Shown: positions 16,846 through 38,341 of the stretch, one piece after another
Position numbering within the stretch: the first letter of the stretch is position 1
Layout of the letters: each line of letters begins with the position of its first letter
From: a virus
Length of the DNA stretch: 38,341 nt
Reading direction: 5' to 3' (one strand)
Virus record (IMG/VR): IMGVR_UViG_3300043470_002335
Location: 1-38,341 of that record
Notes under the pieces: model-generated
The model's database searches: none
What the model was told of the DNA's origin: nothing
The model's input: only the letters and a program-made list of their open reading frames with translations
Made by a program: the position numbers and the translations under genes

Positions 16846-18177
16846 TTACATGTTAGATTTTACAGAATTTTTATCAGTTTCTTCTAATGAACTTAAAAGA
16901 GTATCTATACATTCTTCATAAGACTCTCCTGATTTTACCATATTGGCTATATCTTCTATATTTCTAGTAGAAAGATATGAACCAATTTTTTGTAAACTCT
17001 CTCTTAATTTAGTTACTTTATAGTATTGAACTCCTGATTCATCACATAATTTTCTCTCCAAAGGCTCATGGTAATCTACGAAGAATTTACACATTCTAAA
17101 TCTATCCATTAATGCCATGTCCTGAAAATCTCTTCCTGAAAAATCTTGTGACCCATTACCCCATGTATTACCACACATAATGATATAGAAATCTTTATGT
17201 TTAACGGCAATAGGATTAGAGTCTCTATGAGGAATAGAGATTGAAGTAGAGTTATCTGCTACACCATTAAAGAATAAAGACATATCTCCGCTCATTGCAT
17301 CGTACTCATCAACTAAGAATATACCTCCATTCTCATAGCAATTTAAAAATGTAGTATTCAAATACGTTTCAGATGCAGGTTGTTTGTATCCCATCAAATC
17401 ATGTACTGAACTATCTCTTGAACAAGAATATTTATAAAATGGAAGTCCTAATGATTTTGCAAACTCTTGAGCCATAAAAGTCTTTCCTGTACCAGCAGGC
17501 CCTACTAACATTAATTTTTTAGAAAAAACTAAAGTTTTCAATGCTTTTTCATAAATAGGGTGAGCTAAATGGTCTACATTAGCTGAAACAGTAGTATCTC
17601 CCACAGTAATATTAATAATGCTTCTGCCTTTATTAAACTCCTGTAATAAGTCTTCTTTTATGTTGCTAACTATTCTGGAAGTTTCTGTAAAATAAGCTTC
17701 TTTTAATTCCTCAGTCTTTTCTTCTAAAAGTTCTTGGTAAGAAGAAAGAATATTTGAAGAATTTTCGATGTACTTACCTTGTGTTTCTTGGAACACTTCA
17801 TCAATTTCTTTAGCTAGTCTTTCCAAATCAAACTCTAAAGGTAATTTAACTTCTCCTTGATTTTGATTGTCCATTTGTTGCTCTAAATTTTCTTGGTTTT
17901 CCATTTGTTTATTGTTTTTATTTAATGATTGATTTTCTTCTTTTAAAGAGTATTTTTTTATAAAATCTGTAAAGGTAATATTAGGTTTTGGTGCTGTATC
18001 ATTCCAATCTGCTTGCAGAGCCCATTCACTACTAATTGATTGTGACCATGAAATGCAACACCATTTTTCATTATCAAAAGTAAGCTTATCACAAACAATT
18101 TCACCTTTTTTTCTCAAGAACTCTATTATTTCTTTATACTCTTGTTCAGATCTTAATTGAATAATTTCTTTTCTCAT
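16846..18177 (-). CDS. MoxR/CobS-type AAA+ ATPase
   Basis: 443 aa. An N-terminal 80-residue domain with FDNEKWCCISWSQS is followed by an Asn/Gln-rich linker (about 85-110), a coiled coil (115-185) and an AAA+ module: Walker A GPAGTGKT (226-233), Walker B GIFLVDEYD (D290, E291), sensor 1 IIMCGN (N337), and an arginine finger in MDRFRMC (R359). Such ATPases form hexamers that remodel or load partner proteins together with a VWA protein. Its neighbours are the glucosaminidase-like membrane protein (4-nt overlap) and the VWA-like gene. CobS-type pairs are known in other phages, but their role there is unclear. Confidence 0.85.
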   Translation of the reverse strand: MRKEIIQLRSEQEYKEIIEFLRKKGEIVCDKLTFDNEKWCCISWSQSISSEWALQADWNDTAPKPNITFTDFIKKYSLKEENQSLNKNNKQMENQENLEQQMDNQNQGEVKLPLEFDLERLAKEIDEVFQETQGKYIENSSNILSSYQELLEEKTEELKEAYFTETSRIVSNIKEDLLQEFNKGRSIINITVGDTTVSANVDHLAHPIYEKALKTLVFSKKLMLVGPAGTGKTFMAQEFAKSLGLPFYKYSCSRDSSVHDLMGYKQPASETYLNTTFLNCYENGGIFLVDEYDAMSGDMSLFFNGVADNSTSISIPHRDSNPIAVKHKDFYIIMCGNTWGNGSQDFSGRDFQDMALMDRFRMCKFFVDYHEPLERKLCDESGVQYYKVTKLRESLQKIGSYLSTRNIEDIANMVKSGESYEECIDTLLSSLEETDKNSVKSNM

Positions 18178-34988: not shown

Positions 34989-35396
34989 TTATATTGTACT
35001 TTTTGAATAATTATTTACCAATTCTTTTATCTGATTTTCACTATATTTTTTGCAAACATACTCCAATGCTTCTGAAATACTTGTAGCGTTTGGTACTTTT
35101 ATAGTGGCTTTTGTTTTTAAATGTAGTGTATTTAATTCGGGTGCATATTTATGTACCTCCAATCCAATTACTTTATTTTCAATCAAAGATAGTTTTTTCA
35201 ATTCAAACGCTAAATTTACCACCTCTATAGTGAAATTAAATTTTTGAATATTTTCGGACGTTAAAGCCTCTAATTTGTCTATATTTTGAGTATAATAGTC
35301 AATCCTTAGCTTTTTAGCTTTTAACCCGAATTTGCCCTTACAATTCACTTTGTATATGCAATTTTTTACTAATTCTAATTTGTGTAATTTATTCAT
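34989..35396 (-). CDS. Hypothetical protein, 135 aa
   Basis: A GTG-initiated longer frame (to 35420) starts in the TTGCACC hairpin, so ATG at 35396 is taken. KLHKLELVKNCIYKVNCKGK, then IDYYTQNIDKLEALTSENIQ and NATSISEALEYVCKKYSENQ. Lys-rich, mixed alpha/beta. No family recognised. Confidence 0.55.
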   Translation of the reverse strand: MNKLHKLELVKNCIYKVNCKGKFGLKAKKLRIDYYTQNIDKLEALTSENIQKFNFTIEVVNLAFELKKLSLIENKVIGLEVHKYAPELNTLHLKTKATIKVPNATSISEALEYVCKKYSENQIKELVNNYSKSTI

Positions 35397-35414
35397 ATTT
35401 TTTATTTTTACTAC

Positions 35415-35434
35415 TTGCACCCCGAAAGGTGCAA
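35415..35434 (-). repeat. Hairpin upstream of the 135-aa gene
   Basis: TTGCACC and GGTGCAA make a 7-bp stem with loop TTTCGG on the minus strand. No U-tract follows, so it is more likely an mRNA structure than a terminator. A second small hairpin (AGTTG...CAACT) is at 35457-35472. Confidence 0.4.
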
Positions 35435-36742: not shown

Positions 36743-36894
36743 GAATATACGGAGTTTGTCCTATACCCAACTCTATATTCTCCCACTCGATACAAAATCG
36801 TGGCTTAGAACGCAAATATGGAGGTCATTATATTTCATCCACTGAAATATTTACACAACTCCCCCGAATTTTCCCCGAATCATATCATAATAAA

Positions 36895-37190
36895 CTCCCC
36901 TCGATTGGGTTAAGTAATTACCGCCCCCACTTGTGTAGCGTACCGCCCGAACGTCCGCCCCTTGCCCTTTGTATATTGTACTAATGGAACGCACCGAGTA
37001 CCCACGTCTATACATTGCCTTATATAACTACCGCCTTATATATGTATAAACTAACTCAAGCCTCCGCCACAACTACCCACGCACCCAAACGAGTGCCACG
37101 AGTACCGCACCCTCGTACCCACTCCCTCCCCTCGCTCCGCTCCGAGTGCCTCCGCCACGTCCTCCGCACCTCCTCCGAGTTATTTTTTTT
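36895..37190. other. GC-rich pyrimidine-biased island
   Basis: The plus strand is dominated by C and T with repeated CCTCCG, CCCAC and CGAGT words, in sharp contrast to the roughly 70 percent AT genome. The minus strand holds GGAGGAGG and GCGGAGG runs capable of two-tier G-quadruplexes. ORFs across it look like shadows (low-complexity, no phage-like protein). Confidence 0.5.
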
Positions 37191-37278
37191 TGAGTATGCA
37201 AAAACTCCACAGAACTTTTCTCAAGGGGGGATTTCAAAATTGGGTTTTGTATGGTGGGCTTCGTAGGGAGGATACCCC

Positions 37279-37323
37279 ATTTTTTATCCACACAAACCAT
37301 TTCGGGTATGTGAGTAAAAAAAA
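37279..37323. repeat. Origin-type repeat A with a perfect DnaA box
   Basis: It begins ATTTTTTATCC and continues CACA...ATTTCGGGTA...GTAAAAAAA. It contains TTATCCACA at 37284-37292, an exact match to the DnaA-box consensus TTATnCACA. Repeat B has the same frame 72 bp further on. Confidence 0.65.
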
Positions 37324-37350
37324 TAAAATGGTGATATGGGGGTGATGATT

Positions 37351-37393
37351 ATTTTTTATCCTCATATATGATTTTGGGTAGAGGGTAAAAAAA
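37351..37393. repeat. Origin-type repeat B with a near-consensus DnaA box
   Basis: ATTTTTTATCCTCA, then ATTTTGGGTA and GTAAAAAAA; the box is TTATCCTCA (37356-37364), one mismatch from the consensus. Spacing to repeat A is 72 bp, about seven helical turns, and both point the same way. Confidence 0.6.
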
Positions 37394-37535
37394 TTTTAGG
37401 GGGTGGGGTATGGATCTTTTTTTGGATTTTTTCTGGGTGATTTTTTAGGCTATTTTGGATATTCAAAACGTGCACATAAATAAATAAAGAAGGGATAAAA
37501 AAAGTGCCCAGTAAAATCAAGGGTTCCGAGAGGGC

Positions 37536-37578
37536 AAAAGTACATTTTTGTACTTTTCGTGTACATTTTTGTACTTTT
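37536..37578. repeat. Operator-like palindromic repeat
   Basis: AAAAGTAC-ATTTTT-GTACTTTT (37536-37557) is a perfect 8-bp inverted repeat. Most of it (GTACATTTTTGTACTTTT) recurs at 37561-37578, 21 bp on. Two dyads 21 bp apart suggest cooperative binding of a dimeric regulator. Confidence 0.6.
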
Positions 37579-37625
37579 GACACGCTGAAACCCGCATTTC
37601 TTCGTTGAGAGGTTTTTAAAAAATG

Positions 37626-37649
37626 GGTGACTTAGGGGGTGACTTAGGG
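37626..37649. repeat. Tandem repeat GGGTGACTTAGG
   Basis: Two copies with a 12-bp period, on the G-rich strand. Confidence 0.5.
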
Positions 37650-37651
37650 GG

Positions 37652-37688
37652 TTATAATTTGTAAAGTAAAATGCTTATAATTTGTAAA
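37652..37688. repeat. Direct repeat TTATAATTTGTAAA
   Basis: 14-bp perfect repeat at 37652-37665 and 37675-37688, 23 bp apart, upstream of the first plus-strand promoter. It may be an AT-rich unwinding site or a regulator site. Confidence 0.5.
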
Positions 37689-37695
37689 ATAATTC

Positions 37696-37725
37696 TTGCT
37701 ATTTGTACAAAAGTTTGTATCTTTG
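37696..37725 (+). promoter_or_regulatory. Plus-strand promoter 1
   Basis: TTG (37696-37698), 19 nt, TATCTTTG (37718-37725): full Bacteroidota -33/-7 promoter. It points toward the plus-strand NUMOD1-like gene. Confidence 0.75.
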
Positions 37726-37752
37726 TATTTTAAAAAATAGAAAAAATAATTA

Positions 37753-37788
37753 TGTTCACAAAATAATTATGTTCACAATCCGTGAACA
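37753..37788. promoter_or_regulatory. Operator: TGTTCAC repeats and palindrome
   Basis: TGTTCAC appears at 37753-37759 and 37770-37776. The second forms a perfect inverted repeat TGTTCAC-AATCC-GTGAACA (37770-37788). It lies just downstream of promoter 1, a good position for a repressor. Confidence 0.6.
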
Positions 37789-37864
37789 ATAAAGAAAGAT
37801 GAACAAGTATTAAAAAATGGTTGAAATAATAAAAAATAATAAATAATTTTTATAAAAAAATTTG

Positions 37865-37872
37865 TATCTTTG
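37865..37872 (+). promoter_or_regulatory. Plus-strand promoter 2 (-7 element)
   Basis: TATCTTTG matches TAnnTTTG and is 19 nt before the ATG at 37892. The -33 region has no clear TTG at 19 nt; promoter strength may depend on a factor or on the operator upstream. Confidence 0.6.
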
Positions 37873-37891
37873 TATCCTAAAATAATAAATA

Positions 37892-38275
37892 ATGAAAATA
37901 GCAATGTATGATTTGGAAGGAAACTTCCTAGATATTTTTGAAGTAAAGAGTTTCAAGGAATTGGAAACTTCTTTAGAGATTCCTAGTGGATCCTTGAGAG
38001 CATGTATAGTGGGTAAACAGTTGTCCACTATTAATAGACAATTCAGATTGGTGTCTGATAAAGGAAGATTGATTAATAGAATTGGAGACATTTCCAGTCT
38101 TACTTCTGATTTTAATAAGCCAGTATTTAAGTTTTATAAGGGAAGGTATATTAATACATATTCTTCTGTGAGAAATGCTTCAGAGATCAATGGTATAGAT
38201 GAGGCAGCTATAAATAGATGCTGTAAAGGTAAGGGAAACTCTGCTGGAGGATTTGAATGGAAATATGCAAAATAA
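37892..38275 (+). CDS. NUMOD1-like DNA-binding protein
   Basis: 127 aa. Residues 78-126 (VFKFYKGRYINTYSSVRNAS, EINGIDEAAINRCCKGKGNS, AGGFEWKYA) match the NUMOD1/IENR1 helix-turn-helix module of homing nucleases and phage regulators. Residues 3-52 (AMYDLEGNFLDIFEVKSFKE, then LEIPSGSLRACIVGK) look like a second, diverged copy. There is no nuclease domain, so it should bind DNA without cutting. It is the first gene of the plus block. It may regulate the operator upstream. Confidence 0.75.
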   Translation: MKIAMYDLEGNFLDIFEVKSFKELETSLEIPSGSLRACIVGKQLSTINRQFRLVSDKGRLINRIGDISSLTSDFNKPVFKFYKGRYINTYSSVRNASEINGIDEAAINRCCKGKGNSAGGFEWKYAK

Positions 38276-38284
38276 ATAAGATAT

Positions 38285-38341
38285 ATGAATTATGTAACTT
38301 ATCATGTTGGGGATGTCTTAGTGTTTGACCCAGAAACCCCA
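38285..38341 (+). CDS. Partial hypothetical protein (cut by right window edge)
   Basis: An ATG at 38285 opens a frame with 19 codons (MNYVTYHVGDVLVFDPETP) up to the window edge, 9 nt after the NUMOD1-like stop. Coding-like and coupled in position, but too short for identification. Confidence 0.5.
   Translation, partial: MNYVTYHVGDVLVFDPETP

Follow-up and report, generated by a model that had tools for sequence, protein, structure and literature searches.

A conserved, helix-phased GTAC array as a candidate replication-origin core in a crAss-like phage

A short non-coding block near the right end of the DNA analyzed here is, as far as sequence comparison can tell, a real element under strong selection, and we propose, with a confidence just short of even, that this block and its array of GTAC cores form the replication-origin core of a crAss-like phage. 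The window, by which we mean the whole stretch of 38,341 bases from the virus record IMGVR_UViG_3300043470_002335, contains four such cores, arranged as two repeats. Among the observations behind the origin reading, the block lies where gene modules diverge, the GC skew flips in non-coding DNA about 300 bp away, and clusters of G runs are nearly confined to this region. The features on which the argument depends are as follows:

36850-37222, no strand assigned: C-rich left portion of a non-coding divergence region ~1 kb long, ending at the local GC-skew switch
37110-37131, minus strand: G-run cluster, G4-like (loose loops of 1-14), left of the skew switch
37225-37268, plus strand: G-run cluster, G4-like, right of the skew switch
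37376-37408, plus strand: second plus-strand G-run cluster, G4-like
37464-37618: conserved non-coding block of ~155 bp, the proposed origin core, delimited by alignment and identity to nine relatives
37536-37557: dyad copy 1, AAAAGTAC-ATTTTT-GTACTTTT, perfect, the sole perfect copy in the window
37540-37574: the four-core GTAC array (37540, 37550, 37561 and 37571; steps of 10/11/10 bp), on one helix face
37561-37578: dyad copy 2, GTAC-ATTTTT-GTACTTTT, AAAA left arm absent
37680-37725, plus strand: promoter P1, with a conserved -7 box of the Bacteroidetes type, TATCTTTG, at 37718-37725

The minus strand is the coding strand for nearly all genes in the window, and the replication module includes DNA polymerase A and a helicase. 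Also on this strand, an AAA+ protein (16846-18177) matches phrog_249, annotated as 'porphyrin biosynthesis' (E 1e-32), and also families of clamp loaders and ATPases. BLASTN of 36800-38341 against phage records gave no match, and the minus-strand protein at 34989-35420, used as a query, matched only the twin of the window. This twin, G001 (IMGVR_UViG_3300044846_005100; 140,223 bases), has a polymerase gene 98% identical to that of the window; its NUMOD1-like gene is 100% identical and its dyad region 96% identical over 2284 bp. Relatives were found with the 173-aa winged-helix protein, whose gene lies downstream in the twin, as the query; the search returned 12 loci, the twin included. We scanned 10 of the 12 (L044-L046, L048-L053, and L055), omitting L047, which starts 86 bp before the gene, and the locus of the twin itself (L054). 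Terminase, portal, and capsid genes are present in related records and absent from the window. The large terminase of one relative, G007, has its best match in Cellulophaga phage phi14:2 (Crassvirales; 33.8% identity over 97%), and the remaining G007 matches are to Bacteroides, Flavobacterium, and crAssphage records; judged on this relative rather than on the window, the group belongs with the crAss-like phages (Crassvirales).

Both GTAC dyads and their 21-bp step were detected in 9 of the 10 relatives' loci scanned; L045 begins at P1, where the GTAC site is out of reach. The four cores and their 10/11/10 steps are unchanged in all nine relatives that reach the locus (fewer than nine independent lineages, because L051 equals L055 over the dyad stretch and L050 is 97% identical to both), and the array is single-copy in each of the 10 sequences compared. 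When the window was compared with these nine relatives in 20-bp bins, mean identity reached 1.00 and 0.99 in the dyad bins and 0.75-0.93 in the other bins of 37460-37619; in the adjoining bins it was 0.38 and 0.28 to the right of the block and 0.32 and 0.48 to the left. The P1 bins form a second conserved island (0.85 and 0.94), a few more bins to the left stand at 0.6-0.78, and most of the flanking non-coding DNA is at ~0.3-0.6. Because the GTAC dyads are invariant in all nine relatives while their flanks diverge, they are very probably protein-binding DNA, and to this extent the operator-type nature that the initial annotation had assigned to them is supported. A profile search built from the alignment for distant relatives returned the same phage group only, and no homologous GTAC array was seen in the divergence region of the distant relative phi14:2.

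The dyad had also been described as occurring twice at a spacing of 21 bp. This holds for copy 1, which is perfect, and does not hold in full for copy 2, whose left arm reads TTTTCGTGTAC and whose palindromic part consists of the GTAC cores only (5-bp arms). The exact repeat is an 18-mer, GTACATTTTTGTACTTTT, found at 37540 and 37561. In 8 of the 9 relatives, those of the more distant clade outside the group of L044, the leftmost A of copy 1 is replaced by G. A perfect dyad with arms of at least 8 and a spacer of at most 8 occurs once in 37300-37891, and 62 of 200 shuffles do as well; as a palindrome, copy 1 is within chance for an A+T-rich stretch. Two dyads with arms of at least 7 and at least two G/C per arm are unusual, with 1 shuffle in 200 doing as well, and none of 1,000 whole-window shuffles packed four GTAC into 35 bp. 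Depletion of GTAC by restriction was considered and rejected (82 sites versus 90.7 expected). The decisive evidence for the GTAC element is its conservation, which the second palindrome of the initial annotation, TGTTCAC-N5-GTGAACA, does not share.

The position of the element in the genome bears on its role. In G007 (119,980 bases), viewed in 2.5-kb bins, gene direction and GC skew both turn from minus to plus in the bin that contains the dyads, and the opposite change occurs near 25 kb. The same minus-to-plus change of genes and skew is seen at the dyads in the twin from 42 kb on; over its whole record the skew minimum also falls at the dyads, though the first ~42 kb looks chimeric. Positions 1-42000 of that record differ in gene directions and have a G+C content of 0.33-0.43 versus 0.25-0.35 in the remainder, and this part is probably a chimeric assembly. 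On the local scale, the cumulative skew minimum of the window lies 318 bp before the first GTAC core (~37222), in non-coding DNA, and the corresponding distance is 289 to 359 bp in 9 of 9 sequences (the window and 8 of 8 relatives, with L051 counted and L055 left out as identical). The array therefore sits near a polarity switch, but skew is confounded with gene direction and may be caused by transcription; since the two change together, the switch alone does not show replication.

Next to the skew switch lie the G-run clusters, which we defined loosely as four runs of at least three G with gaps of 1-14, a count that misses clusters across piece ends. G007 and G003 have five clusters each, and all of these lie no more than ~720 bp to the left of the dyads, as do four of the five in G004 and three of the four in the window; in these four records, the clusters are thus almost wholly confined to the divergence region (36850-37410 in the window). 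In all four records, the clusters are on the minus strand to the left of the switch and on the plus strand to the right. The divergence region has a G+C content of 0.39-0.47, above that of the genome, so part of the excess of G runs reflects composition. These clusters, which point outward from the skew switch to either side, may aid strand opening or the formation of a primer (R-loop). A DnaA-dependent origin was also considered. The DnaA-box sequence TTATCCACA occurs at 37284; within 750 bp to the left of the array, however, it or TTATCAACA is present only in the window and its twin and in none of the nine relatives, and boxes with one mismatch are at chance level (20 seen versus 14.15 expected). 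A DnaA-dependent origin acting through this box was therefore rejected. DnaA boxes occur in many iteron-type origins and are not obligatory.

If the block is an origin, its most likely initiator would be the 173-aa winged-helix protein (L013:7593-8114), which is encoded in the downstream plus operon and is possibly the ligand of the GTAC array. Among plus-side genes that have orthologs in G007 as well as G003, its gene is the nearest. The orthologs are 84.7% and 86.5% identical, respectively, against medians of 77.8% and 77.1%, which places them 10th among 49 reciprocal pairs and 13th among 69, and residues 70-158, in the C-terminal half, are nearly invariant. Searches of Pfam, NCBIfam, and the PDB gave weak generic helix-turn-helix matches only, those in the PDB being HTH regulators; PHROGs gave no match, and a tblastn search of 50,697 phage records found nothing related at E 0.01. 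A resemblance of the C-terminal motif had suggested RepL. Identity as RepL was nevertheless rejected: PF05732 gave no match in four of four related records at E up to 10, the Pfam scan contained no RepL, and no sequence match of the candidate initiator to RepA_N or RepL was found. The structural model is poor (mean pLDDT 48), with residues 91-120 at 72-81 and the helices and two strands in the right order. The top VIA-align rows are winged-helix domains; Foldseek returned no match below 0.001 for this poor model. Its structural neighbors, to which the poor model gives little weight, include the winged helices of ORC, MarR, MecI, DnaD, and the RepA N-terminal domain.

Under the origin reading, the four phased GTAC cores would form two iteron-like units of 21 bp, to which the initiator would bind from one side of the helix, opening the neighboring DNA; replication forks would then presumably leave both ways along the two divergent gene modules. 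Of the features of iteron-type origins, tandem direct repeats in helix phase are present, though in two units only, as is a location at the polarity switch, confounded as this is with gene direction; conserved DnaA boxes are absent. In the RepA_N plasmid pSK41, four Rep boxes are the target of a winged helix-turn-helix domain, for whose binding an A+T-rich tract is important (PMC5703833). Plasmid iterons and the pSK41 system resemble the GTAC array in their short, helix-phased direct repeats, A+T-rich spacers, and expected winged-helix initiator; they differ in that the Rep boxes lie inside the rep gene, whereas the array is non-coding and the candidate gene is 1.9 kb away in G001. At the lambda origin, dimers of the O protein bind tandem dyad iterons located inside the O gene. 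Tandem dyads of ~18-22 bp at about two helix turns are common to that origin and the array, whereas the location within the initiator gene and the iteron sequence are not. Within Crassvirales, 'replichores' have been described from GC skew in an account whose relevant part names no origin sequence, whereas here a specific conserved element is located at the switch.

Palindromic, phased sites between divergent modules would also suit an operator or enhancer-like element, and the main rival reading, one that we consider rather unlikely though not far-fetched, is that a multimeric phage regulator other than the NUMOD1-like protein, perhaps the winged-helix protein itself, controls one or both modules from the array. 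That candidate is encoded in the plus operon, and the Foldseek and VIA-align neighbors of its low-confidence model include regulators of the MarR, MecI/BlaI, and Fur types. The spacing to the promoter argues otherwise. P1 carries the -7 box of Bacteroidetes promoters (TAnnTTTG) in the form TATCTTTG, as does a second promoter-like site, P2; at the usual distance between the -33 and -7 elements, 19-21 bp, there is no exact match to the -33 TTTG, P1 having CTTG and P2 none. From the first GTAC to the -7 box of P1, the distance is 178 bp in the window and its twin, 203 bp in L044, and 155, 156, or 157 bp in the others, so both spacing and helical phase vary. Control of the plus-strand promoter by the GTAC dyads from a fixed place is thus not supported: a contact regulator would be expected to keep its distance or phase, and the block is not tied to P1. 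Of the sequence arguments against a simple operator, this variation is the chief one, although it is compatible with long-distance regulation. Moreover, the conserved block extends ~75 bp to the left and ~40 bp to the right of the sites with no conserved promoter inside, and regulation leaves the G-run clusters and the non-coding skew flip unexplained.

An improbable reading is that the element acts as a single-strand long hairpin, serving as an early promoter of the virion RNA polymerase or as a transcription boundary. In Crassvirales, transcription of the early genes is the task of a virion RNA polymerase (PMC8375218 and PMC10136315), and the 51-nt element has a predicted fold of -17.4 kcal/mol (z -6.3), with none of 200 shuffles as low. 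However, both T-rich inner loops of 4 nt consist of mismatches that never vary, a pattern better accounted for by direct repeats than by a stem; covariation is nearly nil, no T run follows, and P1 has its own conserved -7 box of the Bacteroidetes type. A structured RNA was likewise rejected: no Rfam family came near its gathering score, and 1 of 43 pairs changed on both sides. Still more doubtful is a packaging or end site (pac/cos, or a terminal repeat boundary) or a partition site. Three records do end nearby (the window at 38341, the L044 contig 575 bp to the left of the array, and the L045 contig at P1), but at least five longer ones (G001, G003, G004, G005, and G007) continue through, the large-terminase gene is ~7 kb off (66829 versus 59924 in G007), and no partition protein was identified among the proteins scanned.

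The initial annotation had named the product of the first plus-strand gene, a NUMOD1-like protein, as a candidate for autoregulation through the palindromes and for an early/late switch. The features of that part of the window are as follows:

37733-38263, plus strand: putative inserted cassette (TGTTCAC dyad, P2, and NUMOD1-like gene), with ends placed by eye against L044
37743-37776, plus strand: 17-bp tandem duplication, AAAATAATTATGTTCAC twice, which supplies the 'half-site'
37770-37788: TGTTCAC-AATCC-GTGAACA dyad, present in the window and its twin only, the sole perfect copy in the window
37865-37872, plus strand: -7 box of P2, TATCTTTG, a promoter-like site within the cassette
37892-38275, plus strand: gene of the NUMOD1-like protein (127 aa), in which no nuclease domain was detected

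The TGTTCAC dyad is present as claimed. The half-site 17 bp before it exists, too, but as one unit of the tandem duplication. The identity of the protein was confirmed: NUMOD1 (PF07453) scores 24.2 bits against a cut-off of 22.8 over residues 5-39, an I-HmuI NUMOD-like stretch reaches 25.9 bits, just below its cut-off of 27, and the model resembles the DNA-binding part of I-HmuI (1u3e; Foldseek E 7e-3). The protein thus shares NUMOD1 and a likeness to I-HmuI with homing endonuclease proteins of that kind, and differs from them in that no HNH catalytic domain was detected, in its length of 127 aa, and in belonging to a free-standing family. Homologs occur at 25 loci beyond the twin, where they follow other coding genes or stand in other contexts. 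Members of this family (L014-L036) have a strongly conserved N-terminus, MKIAMYDLEG, and are found in many large phage records.

Among the 12 related records, several of which are fragments although L044 and others do span the insertion place, the NUMOD1-like gene is present in one, the 98%-identical twin. In L044, the gene directly behind P1 is related to the second gene of the twin; in the window and its twin, ~530 bp lie between P1 and that gene; the MAFFT alignment did not open its gap where expected, and the junctions were set by eye. Taken together, the NUMOD1-like gene, the TGTTCAC dyad, and the second promoter look like one recent insertion behind P1. Directly behind P1, L044, L046, L048, L049, L050, L052, and L053 have widely different first genes, and by this comparison the slot is hypervariable. 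An HNH endonuclease gene lies close by in L046 (8556-8969). The TGTTCAC dyad, which would lie outside the origin and would have arrived with the cassette, is missing from each of the 10 loci scanned in relatives, and no GTTCAC-N3-7-GTGAAC dyad was found in 26 stretches upstream of homologs of the protein; a half-site occurs in one. These stretches are up to 600 bp long, shorter at record ends, and include some near-identical sequences and three distant matches (L037-L039). The least probable reading is binding of both dyads by the NUMOD1-like protein, with control of its own gene and of the plus operon. Although the protein contains a NUMOD1 domain together with the I-HmuI NUMOD-like stretch, and its gene adjoins the dyads, 11 of 12 related records lack the gene, the GTAC sites persist in the nine relatives that reach the locus, and all 26 other homologs lack the TGTTCAC dyad upstream. 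Because its gene, the TGTTCAC dyad, and P2 look like a recent insertion, the protein cannot credibly be regarded as the ancestral ligand of the array; autoregulation is rejected for the GTAC sites and unsupported for the TGTTCAC dyad, and the early/late switch is unsupported as well. A mobile NUMOD1 cassette can thus mimic an autoregulated switch by introducing a palindrome and a promoter into an early region.

Arrays of this kind are rare. In the viral collection, the four-core pattern ending in TTT occurs in 13 stretches, 10 from this phage group and three from others (L094, L097, and L099). L094 and L099, which come from unrelated phage, share a common sequence around the array, with GTAC at 10/11/10/10 bp, two TGTGGATAA sequences (presumably the DnaA-box complement) ~60-100 bp from it, and C and G runs further to the left; L094 encodes a Toprim/AAA_25 protein. 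A phased GTAC array beside two DnaA-box sequences (L099, 4880-5135, and L094) looks, from sequence, like a replication origin. Five phased cores of the GTACTTT type are found in L097 (2733-2790), near genes for DUF2924, ParB_N-like, and serine recombinase proteins, and about ten GTAC cores, mostly at 11-bp steps, lie in L082 (7090-7196) at the end of a contig from a Bacteroidetes metagenome-assembled genome. The inner-TTTT pattern was found twice in the whole collection of bacterial genomes, and a chromosome-wide Bacteroidota family of GTAC arrays was rejected as being at chance level (2 of 395 genomes, the seed genome included, versus 1 of 395 in the reversed control). A match in Eubacterium (L081) falls in a coding repeat and was discarded. 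The phage cases are analogs picked by the spacing search itself and are suggestive. Since L094/L099, L097, and L082 have cores beyond those forced by the search, we also entertain, as an unlikely extension, that GTAC cores every 10-11 bp represent a general type of initiator-site array, which would here serve as the origin of aquatic-type crAss-like phages.

We know of no earlier origin candidate at the level of sequence for the order Crassvirales. The passages on replication in a 2023 review (PMC10136315) give its exact mode as unknown and possibly different between clades. A short conserved candidate origin, together with a named candidate initiator, makes the replication mode of Crassvirales directly testable.
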